This document shows, in pieces, positions 18,431 to 25,482 of a stretch of DNA of 64,000 nucleotides (positions are counted from its first letter, which is position 1; each line of letters begins with the position of its first letter). The position numbers and the translations under genes are program-made. The notes under the pieces were generated by a model. That model did no database searches. It had not been told where the DNA came from and saw only the letters and a program-made list of their open reading frames with translations. Source of the stretch: Geothermobacter ehrlichii. Its GTDB lineage: Bacteria > Desulfobacterota > Desulfuromonadia > Desulfuromonadales > Geothermobacteraceae. The stretch covers positions 1 to 64,000 of the forward strand of contig NZ_VNIB01000007.1 in assembly GCF_008124615.1 (NCBI RefSeq). Reading direction: 5' to 3'.

Positions 18431-18464
18431 CCAGAAAACCCCTTCCCGAGGTCCCCGGTCAGGC

Positions 18465-19427
18465 ATGGCAGAGCTGATTTCCATCCGCAATCTCAAAACC
18501 TACTTCCAGACCGAGCGCGGCATCGTCAAGGCCATCGACGGTATCGACCTCGACATCAGCCGGGGCGAAACCCTTGCCCTGGTCGGCGAATCGGGCTGCG
18601 GCAAGTCAATGACCGCCCTTTCCATCCTGCGGCTGGTACCCGAGCCGGGACGCATCGTCAGTGGAGAGATCCGCTTCGACGGCCAGGACCTGTTGCGGCT
18701 GCCGGAACCGGAGCTGAGACGCATCCGGGGCAACCGCATCTCCATGATCTTCCAGGAGCCGATGACCTCGCTCAATCCGGTCTTCCGGGTCGGCGAACAG
18801 ATCGCCGAAGCCCTGCGGCTGCACCGGGGCATGAACCGGGGGGAGGCCCTGCGCGCCGCCGCCGACCTGATGACCCAGGTCGGGATTCCCGAAGCCGGCA
18901 TGCGGCTCGCCGACTACCCGCACCAGCTCTCCGGCGGCCTGCGGCAGCGGGTGATGATCGCCATGGCCCTGGCCTGCGATCCGGCGCTGCTGATCGCCGA
19001 CGAACCGACCACCGCCCTTGACGTCACCATCCAGGCGCAGATCATGGATCTGCTGCTCGACCTGCAGAGGGAACGGGGAATGGCGACCCTGCTGATCAGC
19101 CACGACCTCGGGGTGGTGGCGGAAAGCGCCGACCGGGTCGCCATCATGTACGCCGGCCTGATCGTCGAAACGGCCGCCACCGGCGAAATCTTCGGCGAAC
19201 CGCTGCACCCCTATACCCGGGGGCTGCTCGACTGCATACCGAAGCTGGGAGAAGAACGCCAGCGCCTCAACCCCATTCCCGGCCAGGTCCCCGACATCGC
19301 CGACCTGCCCCCCGGCTGCGCCTACGCCGAGCGCTGTCCGCTGGCGGACGGTCATTGCCGCAGCCGGACGCCGGGGCTGAAAGAGATGCGGCCGGGCCAC
19401 TTGGTCCGCTGCTGGAAATGCCGATGA
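18465..19427 (+). CDS. oligopeptide/dipeptide ABC transporter ATPase, DppD/OppD type
   Basis: A 320-residue ATPase with Walker [10 protein letters not shown]-loop [11 protein letters not shown], signature LSGGLRQR, Walker [13 protein letters not shown] and the switch histidine in LLISHDLG. The C-terminal oligopeptide extension with cysteines ([15 protein letters not shown]) is the kind that binds an iron-sulfur cluster in DppD. It energises peptide import with the DppF-like partner, whose ATG overlaps this stop. ATG 18465 was chosen over the upstream TTG because the latter is inside the -35 box. No permease or binding-protein genes are nearby, so the pair must work with subunits encoded elsewhere. 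Confidence 0.92.
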
Positions 19428-20434
19428 ACGAAGTCCTGCTCGAAGTCTGCGATCTGCACAAGTCCTTCACCGTCAGCCGGGGTCCCCTGTCCGGACCGCC
19501 CCAAAGGCTGCGGGCAGTGGCGGGCGTCTCTTTCAGTCTGGCACCGGGCGAAACCCTCGGCCTGGTCGGCGAATCGGGCTGCGGCAAATCGACCACCGGC
19601 CGTCTGATCACCCGCCTGATCGAGCCGGACAGCGGCGTCATCCGCTTTGGCGGCACCGACCTGACCCGCCTGAACCAGCGCAAACTGCGCCCCTACCGCC
19701 GGCGGATGCAGATGATCTTCCAGGACCCCTTCTCCTCCCTCAATCCACGAATGAAGGTGTTCGACATCCTGGCCGAGCCGCTGCTGCTGCACGGCCTCGC
19801 CACCGGAAAGGAACTGGCCGTCGAGGTCGGTGAACTGGCCCACCGGGTCGGCCTCGGTCCGGAACACCTCGACCGTTATCCGCACGAATTTTCCGGCGGC
19901 CAGCGGCAGCGCATCGGCATCGCCCGCGCCATCGCAGTCAGACCGGAACTGATCGTCGCCGACGAGCCGGTTTCTGCCCTCGATCTTTCCATCCAGGCGC
20001 AGGTGATCAACCTGCTGCGCGACATCCAGCAGCAGGACGGGCTCTCCTATCTCTTCATCGCCCACGACCTGGCGGTGGTGGAGCATATCAGCGACCGGGT
20101 CGCCGTCATGTACCTGGGGCGCATCGTCGAACTCGGCCCGGCCCGTGAACTGTACCGTCATCCACTGCATCCCTACACCGAGGCCCTGCTCAACGCCGTG
20201 CCGATTCCCGACCCGAAACGCCGCCAGAAACGACAGATCCTCGCCGGCGAAGTCCCTTCTCCGATCACCCCGCCCGCCGGCTGTCCCTTCCATCCCCGCT
20301 GTCCCTACGCCGGCGAAATCTGCCGGGTGGAGAACCCGCCGCTGGTCGAAAAGGACACCGGACACCACACCGCCTGCCACTACAGCGAGCAGGTCGGACG
20401 CTACCGGCGGCCGGCCGCCCCGGCAGGGTCCTGA
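19424..20434 (+). CDS. oligopeptide/dipeptide ABC transporter ATPase, DppF/OppF type
   Basis: A 336-residue ATPase, the second nucleotide-binding subunit of a DppBCDF-like importer. It shows Walker [22 protein letters not shown], signature FSGGQRQR, Walker [13 protein letters not shown] and switch histidine FIAHDLA, plus the C-terminal oligopeptide domain with [15 protein letters not shown]. The ATGA overlap with the upstream ATPase and GGAA 6 nt before ATG 19424 decide the start. The cysteine pattern in the tail again suggests an iron-sulfur site. Confidence 0.92.
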
Positions 20435-20446
20435 CCGGATTCCGGC

Positions 20447-20475
20447 TTGACTCACTGTGCCGTCGATGGCACAAT
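20447..20475 (+). promoter_or_regulatory. promoter with palindromic operator between -35 and -10
   Basis: TTGACT (20447-20452) and CACAAT (20470-20475) are 17 nt apart. The palindrome TGTGCC-GTCGAT-GGCACA (20456-20473) fills the spacer and enters the -10. Related TGTGNCACA sites lie just after the gene. A regulator bound here would block RNA polymerase, suggesting negative autoregulation. Confidence 0.75.
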
Positions 20476-20520: not shown

Positions 20521-22803
20521 ATGGGTCCGATCACCACCGACAGGGATCTCTGTCGCAAATGCTACGCCTGCGTGCGCAACTGCCCGGTCAAGGCGATCAA
20601 GGTCAAGGAGGACTGCACCGAAGTCATCCACGAGCGCTGCATCGGCTGCGGCAAGTGCCTGCGCTCCTGCTCGCAGAACGCCAAGCAGATTGCCGACTGC
20701 ATCGACGAAACCCGCCGCCTGCTGGCCGGGGGCAGTGACGTGGTCGCCGTACTCGGCTGCTCTTTTCCCGCCTTTTTCAACGACATCCGTCCCGGACAGC
20801 TGGTCACGGCACTGAAAAAACTCGGCTTCGTCGAGGTCCACGAAGGAACCAGCGGCGTCGAGCTGATCCGCGACGATTACCGCCGCCTGATCGAGCGGCC
20901 GCCGCAGACACCGCTGATCTCGAGCCACTGCCCGACGGTGGTCGACCTGATCGAACGGCACTATCCGCAGCTGCTGAAGAACCTGCTGCCGGTGGTTTCG
21001 CCCATGGTCGCCATCGGCCGCTTCATCAAGCAGCAGCGCGGCAGCGACACCCGGGTGATCTACATCAGCTCCTGCATCGCCGGCAAATTCGAGATCGCCG
21101 GCGAACCGGTGGCCGGCGCCATCGACACGGTGCTGACCTACCGCGAGCTGAACATCATGCTCGACGAGCACGGCTACCGGCTGAGGGAAATGCCGGAGAC
21201 CCCCTTCGACGGCATCGAACCACATCAGGGACGCATCTTTCCCATCGCCGGCGGACCGTTCCGTGCCTTCGGCATTCCGCACGATTCCCACAATCCCGAC
21301 TACATCGCCACCGAAGGGGAAGAGAACGCCCTGGAAATCATCCGCGACCTGGCGGCCGGGCGCATCCGTCCCCGGGTGGTCGACATCCGCTTCTGCAACG
21401 GCGGCTGTATCGGCGGCCCCGGCAAGAACAACCGTCTGACCACCTTCACCAAGCGGCACCTCATCTACGGCTATCACCAGAGCACCGACATCCCCTACCG
21501 CACGGCCGGACACTACCTGGACGTCGATGCCAGTCCCGACCTGGGGCGGACCTTCACCAACAAGCATCGGCGGCTGACCCTGCCGAGCGCCGAAAGCATC
21601 CGCCAGATCCTGCGCGCCACCAACAAGCACAGCGAAAAGGACGAGCTGAACTGCGGCGCCTGCGGTTATCACACCTGCCGGGAACACGCCGTGGCAGTCT
21701 ACCAGGGGCTGGCGGAAGGCGGCATGTGCCTGCCCTACTCACTGCAGGTTCTCGAGGAGGACCGCTTCAACCTGGCGCAGAAATACGAACTGGCCCGCCG
21801 GGCCCTCGACCAGGAATTCGGCGACCTGGAGATTATCGCCGAGGACGGCAAGACACGCGAAGTGCTCGACCTGATCCGCCAGGTCGGCCCGACCCCGACC
21901 ACGGTGCTGATCCGGGGCGAGTCGGGGACCGGCAAGGAACTGACCGCCCGTGCCATCCACCGGCAGAGCCTGCGCGCCGACCGGCCGCTGGTCACCGTCA
22001 ACTGCACCACCCTGCCCGACAGCCTGCTCGAAAGCGAGCTCTTCGGCCACGTCAAGGGGGCCTTCACCGGCGCCCACGCCGACAAGAAGGGGCTGTTCGA
22101 GACCGCCAGCGGCGGCACCATCTTTCTCGACGAAATCGGCGACATCACCCCGAAGCTGCAGGCGGAACTGCTGCGGGTGCTCGACAACGGCGAAATCAAG
22201 CCGGTCGGCAGCAACCGCTCGATCAAGGTCGACATCCGCCTGATCACCGCCACCAACAAGAACCTGGAACAGGGTGTGCGCGAAGGCTGGTTCCGCGAAG
22301 ACCTGTTCTACCGCCTCAACGTCTTCACCATCAACCTGCCCCCCCTGCGCAATCGCAGGGAATCGCTGCCCGCCCTGGCGCACCATTTCGTCGAACGCGC
22401 CAGCAAGCGGCTGAACAAGCCCCTGCTCGGCATCGAGGACCGGGCGGTGGAAGCGATGCTCAACTACCACTGGCCGGGCAACATCCGTGAGCTGCAGAAC
22501 ATCATCGAACGCGCCGCGGTTCTCACCCAGGACAACGTGATCCATCTCGACAACCTGCCGGTCGTCTTCGCCGAGCTCTACCAGAAGCTCCAGCTGCCGG
22601 CCGATCGACCCACCACGTTCAACGAACTGCGCTCGGCCCAGGTCGGGAGAATCGAGGCCAACCTGCTCAAGCGCTATCTGCAGGAAACGGGCGGCAACGT
22701 CTCCGCCGCCGCTCGCAAGGCCCAGCTGCCACGCCGCACCTTCTACCGCCTGCTCGAACGGCATGGCATCGACAGCAAGGCCTTTCGCCGCCGGCCCACC
22801 TGA
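20521..22803 (+). CDS. [FeFe]-hydrogenase-like H-cluster sensor fused to a sigma-54 activator
   Basis: A 760-residue cytoplasmic protein with an unusual domain order. Two ferredoxin-type [4Fe-4S] motifs come first (C11, C14, C17, C21 and C40, C43, C46, C50). Then follows an [FeFe]-hydrogenase large-subunit-like domain (about 65-350) that keeps all four cysteines which hold the H-cluster in catalytic enzymes: C137 (SSHCPT), C185 (SSCIAGK), C292 and C296 (FCNGGCIGG). The adjacent proton-relay cysteine is H136 instead. A further four-cysteine Fe-S module (C378, C381, C386, C403) leads to an AAA+ domain with Walker A GESGTGKE (about 467), intact GAFTGA (513-518) and FLDEIGD, then a C-terminal Fis-type HTH (about 725-748). 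It should be a redox- or H2-sensing transcription activator rather than an efficient hydrogenase. Whether an H-cluster or a plain Fe-S cluster is bound is unknown. Confidence 0.93.
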
Positions 22804-22809
22804 GCCAGC

Positions 22810-22849
22810 TGTGGCACACATGCCGCACAGGTGTGCCACATGCGACACA
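22810..22849. promoter_or_regulatory. tandem TGTGNCACA palindromes, probable activator binding sites
   Basis: TGTGGCACA (22810-22818) and TGTGCCACA (22832-22840) are palindromes 22 bp apart, two helical turns, and together form a 10-bp inverted repeat. A weaker TGCGACACA follows at 22841-22849. They lie 7 bp after the H-cluster activator stop and about 150-180 bp upstream of a sigma-54 promoter. A further palindrome, AAAATGGGCCATTTT, is at 22904-22918. Confidence 0.75.
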
Positions 22850-22988
22850 TTCACAATTGGCCTTACCACTGCCTTTCGTGGCGAAATACCGGGAGCAGCG
22901 GCCAAAATGGGCCATTTTTGACACACTTCGACATCTCCGCACCGCCGCAAACGCCGATAAATCCCCCTGTCACGTCATCTGCGCCCCT

Positions 22989-23003
22989 TGGCACACCCCT
23001 TGC
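22989..23003 (+). promoter_or_regulatory. sigma-54 promoter downstream of the H-cluster activator
   Basis: TGGCACACCCCTTGC matches the -24/-12 consensus very closely, with GG and GC separated by exactly 10 nt. The expected start is near 23015. Less than 70 nt beyond is the stem-loop of a strong terminator. Confidence 0.88.
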
Positions 23004-23014
23004 TTAACAAATGA

Positions 23015-23105
23015 ATACATGCCGGGGACACAGGATCCTTCAACCAATTCCTGCCCCTTTTGACGCCGTCACGGGCTCTCTCTCCCCCGGACGGCGTTTT
23101 TTTTT
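23015..23105 (+). ncRNA. candidate sigma-54-dependent small RNA (or attenuated ptsP leader)
   Basis: The transcript from the sigma-54 promoter would run about 90 nt to a terminator ending in nine T. The only ATG nearby (23011) is upstream of the predicted start and has no ribosome site. The 5' half contains ACACAGGATCCTT, close to the AGGA-type motif bound by CsrA/RsmA, and a pyrimidine-rich single strand before the terminator. The alternative is a leader that controls read-through into ptsP, 83 nt further on. Confidence 0.6.
23063..23105 (+). terminator. strong intrinsic terminator of the candidate small RNA
   Basis: ACGCCGTC (23063-23070) pairs with GACGGCGT (23090-23097), and nine T follow at 23097-23105. 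It sits between the sigma-54 promoter and ptsP. Confidence 0.9.
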
Positions 23106-23187
23106 GGCGACAGCCCGTCGCCTTGGTTATCATGGGGCGCGAACACACACCTTCGCTCCCTCAACACGACCGGCAGCAACGGAACCG

Positions 23188-25482
23188 ATGCAAGGCAAAC
23201 TCGGATTACGCACCCTTGAGGACATCAGCGCCCTGATCCTGCAGTCGCACAATCTCGACGAGACCCTGAACAATATCGTCGACCTGGTGGCGCGCCGGAT
23301 GCAGACCGAGGTCTGCTCGCTCTACCTGCTCGATCCGGACGGCGAAACCCTGCGCCTGCGGGCCACTCACGGCCTGAGTCCCGACGCCGTCGGCCGGGTG
23401 ACCATGAAAACCAGCGAGGGCCTTGCCGGCCTGACCGTCGAGAAGCGGCAGACCGTCGCCATCCGCGAACCGGAAAAGCATCCCCGTTACCGCTACTTCG
23501 CCGAGACCGGCGAGGAACGCTACCACTCCTTCCTCGGCATCCCGCTCTTCGATCGGCAGAATCCGCTCGGCGTCATCGTCATCCAGACCGTCGAACCGCG
23601 CACCTTCACCGAGACGGAGATCAGCGCCCTGTCGACCATCGCCTTCCAGGTGGCGTCGATCGTCATCAATGCCCGGCTGCTCGACTCGATCAACAGACGG
23701 CAGAGCGCCCTGCCCGACCCCGGACAGACCGGAGAGCCGACAGCAGCCGACGAGTGTGAGCAGCGACCGATCCTGCGCGGCCAGGTCGCCTACCCCGGCG
23801 TCGCCATGGGACCGGCGCACATCCTCGACAACCAGCAGGGATTCGCCGATATCTTCGACGAGGACGGCGTCGACGCCGACGAGGAACGCAGCAGACTCGC
23901 CGACGCGCTGGAAAAGACCCGCATCCAGACCCTGTTTCTCGAAAAACGGATGGCGGAACGCCTGGGCGAGGAGGACGCGTCGATCTTTCACACCCACCTG
24001 ATGATCCTCGAGGACCACGGCTTCGTCGACAAGCTGTTCGACGAGATCGACGCCGGGCACAGCGCCCCCTACGCGCTGAAGAAGGTGGTCAGCACCTACA
24101 TCGACGCCTTCAAAAAGATGGACGACCCCTACCTGCGGGAAAGGGCGGCCGACATGGCCGACATCGGCCGGCGCATCCTGGCGCACCTGACCGGGCGGGA
24201 GGAAAGCGGCCTGCACCTGAAAACCCCCGGCATTCTGGTGGCACACGAGATCCTGCCCTCCGACATGGCCAGCCTCGATCCCGAGCAGGTGCTCGGCCTG
24301 GTCACCGAATCCGGCGGCGAGTATTCCCACGCCGTGATCATGGCCAAGTCGCTCGGCATTCCGGCCATGGTCGACGTCAGGGGCGTGCTGCGCCATCTCG
24401 AACCGGAGGCCCCGGTCATTCTCGACGCCAACGCCGGCACCTTCTACATCCGCCCCCAGCCGGCCGTCGAGGAGGAGTACCGCCGGCTCGACCGGGAGCG
24501 GCGGCGGGAGCTGGGACGGCTCGACGAGCTGCGGAAACTGCCGGCCCGCACCGCCGACGGCGTCGACATCGTGCTGCGGGCCAACATCGGCCTGGTCAGC
24601 GACATCGAGATCGCCCGCCACAACGGCGCCCGCGGCGTCGGGCTCTACCGCACCGAATTTCCCTACATGGCGCGCGGCGGCTTTCCCGACCGCGACGACC
24701 AGTACCGGCTCTACCGCAAGGTGGTGGAAGGATTTCCGGGCGAGGTGGTCACCATCCGCACCCTCGACATCGGCGGCGACAAGGCGTTGCCCTACTTCGC
24801 GCCGCCGGAGGAAGACAATCCGTTCATGGGCTGGCGCTCGGTCCGGGTCTCGCTCGACAATCCGGACATCTTCATCACCCAGATCGAGGCCATTCTCATG
24901 GCCGCCCGCCACGGCGACGTCAGACTGCTCTTTCCCATGATCTCGTCGGTGGAGGAGGCCCTGGCCTGCCGGCAGGCGGTCAGGCAGGCGGCGGCCAACC
25001 TGGCCGGGGAAGAGATCGAACATGTGGCCGACATTCCGCTGGGGGTGATGATCGAGGTGCCGGCGGCCATCCCCATCGCCCGCCACCTGGCCGAGCTGGT
25101 CGACTTCTTCGCCCTGGGCACCAACGACCTGGTCCAGTACCTGCTGGCCGCCGACCGGGGCAATCCACTGGTCCGCAAGTACTACGACCCCCTGCACCCC
25201 GCGGTTCTGGCGACCATCCGCCAGATTCACCTCATCGCCCGGGATACCGGCCGCGCGCTCTGTCTCTGCGGCGAGATGGCCACCGATCCGCTGGGGCTGC
25301 TCGCCCTGCTCGGCCTCGGCCTGCGCGAATTTTCCACCCCGGCGCCCTACATTCCCCGCATCAAGGCCCTGCTGCAGCGCATCAACCTCGAACAGACGGC
25401 CCGCGCCGTTGACGAGATCGTCGATCTCGGCGAAAGCCACGAGATTCGCAGCCGCCTGCAGCGCCTGCTGCCGAAGGACTGA
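23188..25482 (+). CDS. ptsP: phosphoenolpyruvate-protein phosphotransferase PtsP (EI-Ntr)
   Basis: A 764-residue enzyme I of the nitrogen-type phosphotransferase chain. It has an N-terminal GAF domain (about 10-165), the PEP-utiliser N-domain (about 195-330), the swivelling domain with the phospho-histidine H381 in GGEYSHAVIMAKS, and the C-terminal PEP-binding barrel with RTEFPYMARGGFP, GVMIEVPAA, FFALGTNDLVQYLLAADRGN and the CGEMA cysteine. It passes phosphate from PEP to NPr and then EIIA-Ntr, which link carbon/nitrogen status to regulation. Neither partner gene is in the window. ATG 23188 is preceded only by a weak GGAA; the reading frame is open further upstream but runs through a terminator. 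The GAF domain probably senses glutamine or a related signal. Confidence 0.93.
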   Translation: MQGKLGLRTLEDISALILQSHNLDETLNNIVDLVARRMQTEVCSLYLLDPDGETLRLRATHGLSPDAVGRVTMKTSEGLAGLTVEKRQTVAIREPEKHPRYRYFAETGEERYHSFLGIPLFDRQNPLGVIVIQTVEPRTFTETEISALSTIAFQVASIVINARLLDSINRRQSALPDPGQTGEPTAADECEQRPILRGQVAYPGVAMGPAHILDNQQGFADIFDEDGVDADEERSRLADALEKTRIQTLFLEKRMAERLGEEDASIFHTHLMILEDHGFVDKLFDEIDAGHSAPYALKKVVSTYIDAFKKMDDPYLRERAADMADIGRRILAHLTGREESGLHLKTPGILVAHEILPSDMASLDPEQVLGLVTESGGEYSHAVIMAKSLGIPAMVDVRGVLRHLEPEAPVILDANAGTFYIRPQPAVEEEYRRLDRERRRELGRLDELRKLPARTADGVDIVLRANIGLVSDIEIARHNGARGVGLYRTEFPYMARGGFPDRDDQYRLYRKVVEGFPGEVVTIRTLDIGGDKALPYFAPPEEDNPFMGWRSVRVSLDNPDIFITQIEAILMAARHGDVRLLFPMISSVEEALACRQAVRQAAANLAGEEIEHVADIPLGVMIEVPAAIPIARHLAELVDFFALGTNDLVQYLLAADRGNPLVRKYYDPLHPAVLATIRQIHLIARDTGRALCLCGEMATDPLGLLALLGLGLREFSTPAPYIPRIKALLQRINLEQTARAVDEIVDLGESHEIRSRLQRLLPKD

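Follow-up and report, generated by a model that had tools for sequence, protein, structure and literature searches.

A predicted sigma-54-dependent small RNA, apparently in the place of HgtR, beside an Fe-S activator gene of Geothermobacter ehrlichii

In a 64,000-nt stretch of the Geothermobacter ehrlichii genome (the window; contig NZ_VNIB01000007.1, positions 1 to 64,000), sequence comparison establishes a regulatory locus consisting of activator sites, a sigma-54 promoter and a conserved, covarying small RNA, and further establishes that a protein takes the place of this RNA beside the same activator family in relatives. With a probability of roughly 0.7, this is a stand-alone sigma-54-dependent RNA of about 90–100 nt that is transcribed once the neighbouring Fe-S/hydrogenase-like activator has been turned on, that occupies the place of the repressor HgtR under the same activator, and whose loop represses the translation of citrate-cycle genes. 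We infer H2 or a reduced redox state as the signal: the reduced Fe-S activator would drive sigma-54 transcription of the RNA, the exposed terminator loop CUCUCUCC would pair with GGAGAGAG over the ribosome sites of gltA, mdh and other citrate-cycle or electron-entry genes, and the resulting block in translation would lower acetate oxidation. These relatives of Geobacter are acetate-oxidising bacteria, and if this reading is true, the RNA would be a translational brake on their citrate cycle and the locus a clear example of a retained sensor whose output switched between protein repressor and small RNA. It makes the choice between H2 and acetate in these bacteria directly testable.

Layout of the locus and its regulatory sites

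Between the activator gene and ptsP, the TGTGNCACA palindromes are followed by the -24/-12 promoter, the RNA and its terminator. The features, in window positions, are as follows:

20456..20473, strand not applicable: activator site TGTGCCGTCGATGGCACA, just 5' of the activator gene (palindrome scan)
20521..22803, + strand: gene of an Fe-S sigma-54 enhancer-binding activator (Pfam domains; invariant cluster cysteines)
22801..22818, strand not applicable: predicted activator-binding palindrome 1 (palindrome scan; another match, 22810-22827, overlaps it)
22832..22849, strand not applicable: predicted activator-binding palindrome 2 (palindrome scan)
22858..22868, strand not applicable: GntR-type operator-like word TGGCCTTACCA (matches TGGYCNNACCA)
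22908..22925, strand not applicable: predicted activator-binding palindrome 3 (palindrome scan)
22989..23003, + strand: sigma-54 promoter, -24/-12, TGGCACACCCCTTGC (full consensus match)
23015..23105, + strand: small RNA of about 91 nt (5' end predicted from the promoter position)
23024..23057, + strand: first stem-loop of the RNA (23024-23027 and 23031-23035 paired with 23049-23057)
23062..23105, + strand: terminator hairpin and nine T (sequence, fold and covariation)
23076..23085, + strand: constant C/U loop CUCUCUCUCC, the proposed seed against GGAGAGAG Shine-Dalgarno sites
23104..23133, + strand: sigma-70-like promoter candidate for ptsP (consensus match only)
23188..25482, + strand: ptsP (GAF and enzyme I domains), a neighbour that the RNA does not require

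Genes for dppD-dppF-like ATPases lie at 18459-20434, 5' of the activator gene. The layout agrees with a preliminary description of the locus, which had reported palindromes two turns apart (TGTGGCACA at 22810-22818 and TGTGCCACA at 22832-22840, a spacing of 22 bp), a textbook -24/-12 promoter (a full match at 22989-23003) and, after about 90 nt, a terminator with nine T (the 91-nt stretch 23015-23105). The terminator is absent from an automated terminator scan, which is limited to loops of 8 nt; its own loop has 10 nt.

Judged from the relatives, the real palindrome unit is 18 bp long, TGTGYCA-N4-TGRCACA. With up to two mismatches, the 18-bp palindrome TGTGYCANNNNTGRCACA was found in all 80 of 80 activator-RNA intergenic regions, which together hold 182 sites compared with 0.3 in mononucleotide shuffles. 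A like palindrome is present within 200 nt 5' of the start of the activator gene in 61 of 69 relatives, and the site at 20456..20473 suggests that the activator gene is probably autoregulated. Such sites cluster here: with one mismatch, a like palindrome occurs at 8 places in the genome (2 for a reversed control), and as 5 of these (two of which overlap each other) are at this locus, the activator looks dedicated to its own gene and the small RNA.

Exact TGGCAC-N5-TTGC words number 14 in the genome versus 5 for the reversed control, so the promoter word alone is no proof. A promoter matching at least 8 of 10 positions lies within about 70 nt upstream of the RNA in 86 of the 97 matches to a covariance model described below. 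The identical promoter word on contig 20 was considered as the site of a second RNA and rejected, since the sequence after the word is without such an RNA; this word precedes a gene that was read by eye as 4-hydroxybutyryl-CoA dehydratase.

A GntR-type operator-like word is located between the activator sites and the promoter in the window and at L002, L007 and L089, and was recognised by eye at L065 and L077. Its pattern, TGGYCNNACCA, is found in 4 of the 80 activator-RNA intergenic regions, with 0.05 expected after shuffling, and a second, carbon-linked input is possible.

Conservation and structure of the small RNA

The sigma-54-driven small RNA that had been proposed beside the activator gene is strongly supported by conservation, as promoter and RNA recur at 30 of 30 related activator loci. 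Of these, 16 are on the plus strand and 14 are minus-strand loci that were read re-oriented; 11 of the 14 were called by script, and the promoter or terminator was read by eye at L023, L024 and L026. A covariance search of related genomes, which the preliminary description had suggested, was performed with a model built from the 16 plus-strand loci. At a threshold of E 0.01, this model matched 92 of the 136 genomes of the order, 88 of them credibly; the other four (G091, G097, G109 and G123) were matched by weak, probably false hits only. A second covariance model (E 0.001) matched 95 of the 277 genomes of the class, and outside the order this class-wide search resulted in only 5 weak matches of 36–39 bits. 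The covariance search of 97 loci resulted in 97 matches, of which nine weak ones (L105 and L108-L115; below 36 bits and without activator or promoter) were dropped to leave 88 copies. The activator gene is within 1 kb upstream of the RNA in 81 of the 97 matches. At six inspected loci without the activator (L064, L065, L077, L094, L095 and L106), the next upstream gene encodes a dppF-like ATPase, and the promoter is retained at five of the six. The pattern of the locus is far above chance.

The stretch 23015-23107 folds at -34.7 kcal/mol (z -4.0), which none of 200 shuffles equalled. In an alignment of 83 RNAs, 93.2% of the cells pair and 12 of 15 base pairs show two-sided changes, the observed values being reached in 0 of 500 shuffles; fitting of the alignment to the model is a bias towards the structure, but the signal is lost when the partners are slid by 1–3 columns. 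The first stem, GGGG/CCCC and variants, covaries, with its outer four pairs conserved, and the terminator stem varies with compensatory changes around the constant loop CUCUCUCC. The loop CTCTCTCC is intact in 81 of the 88 copies (79–82 of 83 per column). For the 83 copies, the estimated RNA length has a median of 97 nt and a range of 87–122 nt.

As an alternative to an independent RNA, the preliminary description had offered an attenuated ptsP leader, in which case the RNA would be a by-product of termination and read-through would be what matters. ptsP does lie within 1 kb downstream in 67 of the 97 model matches, or 67 of 88 once the weak nine are set aside, but promoter and RNA persist where ptsP is not next, for example at L025, at L093 and in every one of the 14 f18 family copies (on two of these contigs the sequence ends early). 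In addition, the terminator loop is constant, and in the window a sigma-70-like promoter candidate follows the terminator. The leader is thus not supported, and we consider it very unlikely.

An RNA that titrates CsrA is more improbable still: the window copy contains GGA, and the motif reminiscent of CsrA sites that had been described is indeed present (ACACAGGAT at 23028-23036), but the ACANGGA consensus is found in 0 of the 88 copies (the looser ANGGA in 53 of 88) and the conserved GGGG is one arm of the covarying stem. Virtually no likelihood attaches to a small peptide gene. The window copy holds a 14-codon ATG ORF at 23019-23063, but this starts 4 nt past the inferred 5' end and therefore has no room for a ribosome site, and 70 of the 88 copies lack a complete ATG, GTG or TTG ORF, in keeping with the earlier statement that no ORF with a ribosome site lies between promoter and terminator.

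The conserved promoter and RNA, the covariation and the constant loop indicate that this is a new small RNA family and not a ptsP attenuator or a CsrA sponge. An Rfam cmscan of 22000-24000 resulted in two chance matches (E 0.56 and 0.89), none of them at the RNA. No description of such an RNA was found in a literature search whose coverage of subscription papers was thin and whose query was partly unspecific.

The activator and the exchange of its output

The activator matches Pfam domains for two 4Fe-4S motifs, an iron-hydrogenase-like region, a further Fe-S region, AAA+ and a Fis-type HTH. The cysteines assigned by motif as cluster ligands, and the four cubane cysteines, show no change in 70 of 70 relatives, but all 70 carry His136 in place of the proton-relay cysteine. 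The maturase HydG was above the cut-off in 0 of the 33 RNA-carrying genomes searched (five of the 33 being without the activator). Among all 43 genomes, HydG was above the cut-off in 4, which are 4 of the 10 RNA-less genomes and all belong to family f4; the weaker matches of this search we take to be probably ThiH-like. Since HydG is missing in the RNA carriers searched and His occupies the proton-relay position, the H-cluster activator of the preliminary description is unlikely, and the protein is better read as a [4Fe-4S] redox sensor. A link to H2 by a route other than an H-cluster is plausible, as the output of the Geobacter counterpart, HgtR, is H2-induced.

At L259-L261 (family f4), diverged activators with 45–47% identity run straight into ptsP, and no RNA was seen there. 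The genomes of L259-L261 do have HydG, and this diverged version possibly binds an H-cluster. A relative of the activator with 42–45% identity occurs in Moorella, Thermanaeromonas and other Clostridia (L448-L454), where neither the RNA nor a ribbon-helix-helix gene was found beside it.

A search of named genomes for the activator resulted in 409 loci, of which the best 80 were kept. By pattern, the output at these best 80 loci is the RNA in 42, a ribbon-helix-helix protein in 27 and neither in 11, with 7 of the last 11 from Bacillota. In Geobacteraceae, the same activator precedes a protein of 57–61 aa, MGRMRENPRYNVISMRISD..., of the ribbon-helix-helix type by a Pfam match below the cut-off. 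A -24/-12-like word precedes 21 of the 27 ribbon-helix-helix genes, and palindromes precede all 16 of the 27 that were inspected. In a tree of the activators, 26 protein rows and three 'neither' rows form one branch with a support of 100; the tree was built by a quick method with a midpoint root from 68 selected loci of the 80 named ones, with L380 counted as RNA by context. A tblastn search with an HgtR-like protein, which covered the window and the loci below L375, gave no match.

According to PMC2725144, GSU3364 of G. sulfurreducens has an activator gene on its upstream side and an RpoN promoter is predicted for it. GSU3364 is HgtR, which is induced by H2 and represses citrate synthase according to PMC7894505, a study that itself did not detect HgtR; the targets named in PMC7726332 are gltA, atpG and nuoA. 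By position and promoter, we infer that the ribbon-helix-helix protein of Geobacteraceae is HgtR, and the small RNA would then stand in its output position, behind the same activator family, sites and sigma-54 promoter. The activator family and the palindromes are shared with Geobacteraceae, and the upstream activator gene and predicted RpoN promoter of G. sulfurreducens (PMC2725144) correspond to those of the window. Citrate synthase is a target of HgtR (PMC7894505) and, by complementarity, a predicted target of the RNA. The two differ in that HgtR is a protein repressor and the product in the window an RNA predicted to act on translation.

Complementarity of the terminator loop to Shine-Dalgarno sites

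The loop CUCUCUCC is complementary to GGAGAGAG, the Shine-Dalgarno site of citrate synthase and, in part, of malate dehydrogenase and others. The search of the own genome for the loop complement was made before the link to HgtR was met. The pattern GGAGAGAG-N1-12-ATG was found at 26 places, compared with 7 for the reversed pattern. Among the genes behind these sites are those for citrate synthase, for the dehydrogenases of malate and isocitrate, for the E2 of a 2-oxoacid dehydrogenase taken to be PDH, for the large subunit of a NiFe hydrogenase and for a NuoE-like subunit, together with unrelated ones such as biotin carboxylase, HU, an smpB-like gene and a phosphoribosyltransferase. The presence of three core genes of the citrate cycle in some 16 real starts has p ~6e-5, a value that rests on estimates (15 cycle genes in 2900, about 16 real starts). 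Three further genomes have 22, 24 and 15 such start places versus 4, 1 and 3 for the controls. In each of the three gltA has the site, and in two of them mdh; further site genes include those of succinyl-CoA ligase alpha, fumarase, an enzyme of the acetyl-CoA hydrolase/transferase family, NiFe hydrogenase, a complex I subunit and, twice, a Na-coupled transporter family; many others are unrelated to the citrate cycle. The RNA probably turns down several citrate-cycle genes.

The start regions of gltA and mdh were then compared across genomes, with 25 nt upstream scanned for both genes in set 1, and 36 nt plus 9 nt of the gene for gltA in set 2. Partial gltA hits (G185:C11 and G095) and partial or paralogous mdh hits (G185, G195 and G054:C34) were dropped, and the genomes G010, G160, G170 and G175 are each represented by two rows for gltA. 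In set 1, the gltA site is present in 26 of 31 RNA-carrying rows (27 with G012, by eye), 5 of 12 RNA-less rows of the order and 0 of 13 rows from other orders of the class; in set 2, it is present in 14 of 19 RNA-carrying and 9 of 9 RNA-less rows. Combined, this gives 41 of 50 RNA-carrying versus 14 of 21 RNA-less rows in the order (Fisher p 0.21), and p 1e-7 for the order versus other orders, both values being indicative only as the rows are related. Some RNA-less genomes are incomplete (G045 79%, G121 76%). Within the order, the gltA site does not follow the distribution of the RNA. For mdh, the site was found in 17 of 30 RNA-carrying rows, 5 of 14 RNA-less rows in the order and 0 of 9 from other orders.

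It may be that the RNA is a real sigma-54 transcript and GGAGAGAG a ribosome site typical of the lineage, with the loop acting otherwise (protein binding, other targets or as a sponge for another small RNA). That gltA retains its site in 14 of the order's 21 RNA-less rows fits this possibility, as do the isolated duplex energies, which range from -16.1 to -22.3 for 12 candidate targets and from -6.7 to -18.2 for 12 gene starts of the window; duplex energy was rejected as a target test, since the ranges overlap and do not discriminate. Against it, GGAGAGAG occurs in 0 of 156 neighbouring gene starts of RNA-carrying genomes (activator 0 of 71, ptsP 0 of 69, dppF 0 of 16; 30 nt upstream plus 6 nt of the gene), the gltA site is present in 0 of 13 rows from other orders of the class, and eight genomes without the activator and RNA have another element with a like loop. 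Moreover, the protein counterpart represses the same gene, gltA, according to PMC7894505 and PMC7726332. We regard a lineage-typical site as unlikely and keep repression by loop pairing as the preferred reading. More tentatively, and at a little short of even odds, the activator family may have kept its input and its task, turning the citrate cycle down when H2 or reducing power is plentiful, and have exchanged its output between HgtR in Geobacteraceae and the RNA in Desulfuromonadales; CUCUCUCC/GGAGAGAG would then amount to a translational code common to central carbon genes of the order. In genomes that lack the activator, an unrelated second RNA-like element, accompanied in some of them by a GntR-type operator, would read this code too.

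Sigma-54 small RNAs driven by activators include CrcZ/CrcY (CbrB, Pseudomonas), Qrr1 (LuxO) and GlmY (GlrR), with CrcZ and Qrr1 encoded beside their activator genes and CrcZ titrating a protein complex. They resemble the RNA described here in their mode of control, and the input domains of their activators are unlike that of the activator in the window. A precedent for the pairing comes from RoxS/RsaE, one of whose targets, citZ, is the citrate synthase gene. In Bacillus and Staphylococcus, C-rich regions of RoxS/RsaE pair with G-rich target sites and lower sucCD and citZ under the control of Rex/NADH, as described in PMC5419742. The constant, exposed C-rich loop of the RNA in the window would likewise act as an anti-Shine-Dalgarno seed; phylum and regulators are different, with no homology shown and no Rfam family matched. 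By analogy, RoxS/RsaE shows that C-rich pairing is a workable mode for down-regulation of the citrate cycle.

The second small-RNA-like element was seen in eight f7 genomes that lack the activator and the RNA (L268, L269, L272, L273, L275, L276, L280 and L283). It consists of a hairpin whose loop is of the CUCUCUC type and, after it, a terminator whose loop is rich in C, for example AUCUCCUCCC. As a lead, an element with a like loop could explain why the gltA site is kept in RNA-less genomes. A GntR-type operator, TGGTCTGACCA or TGGTCTTACCA, lies upstream of the element in four of the eight (L268, L275, L276 and L280), and a TTGACA-N16/17-TATATT word is present at the element in L276 and L280.
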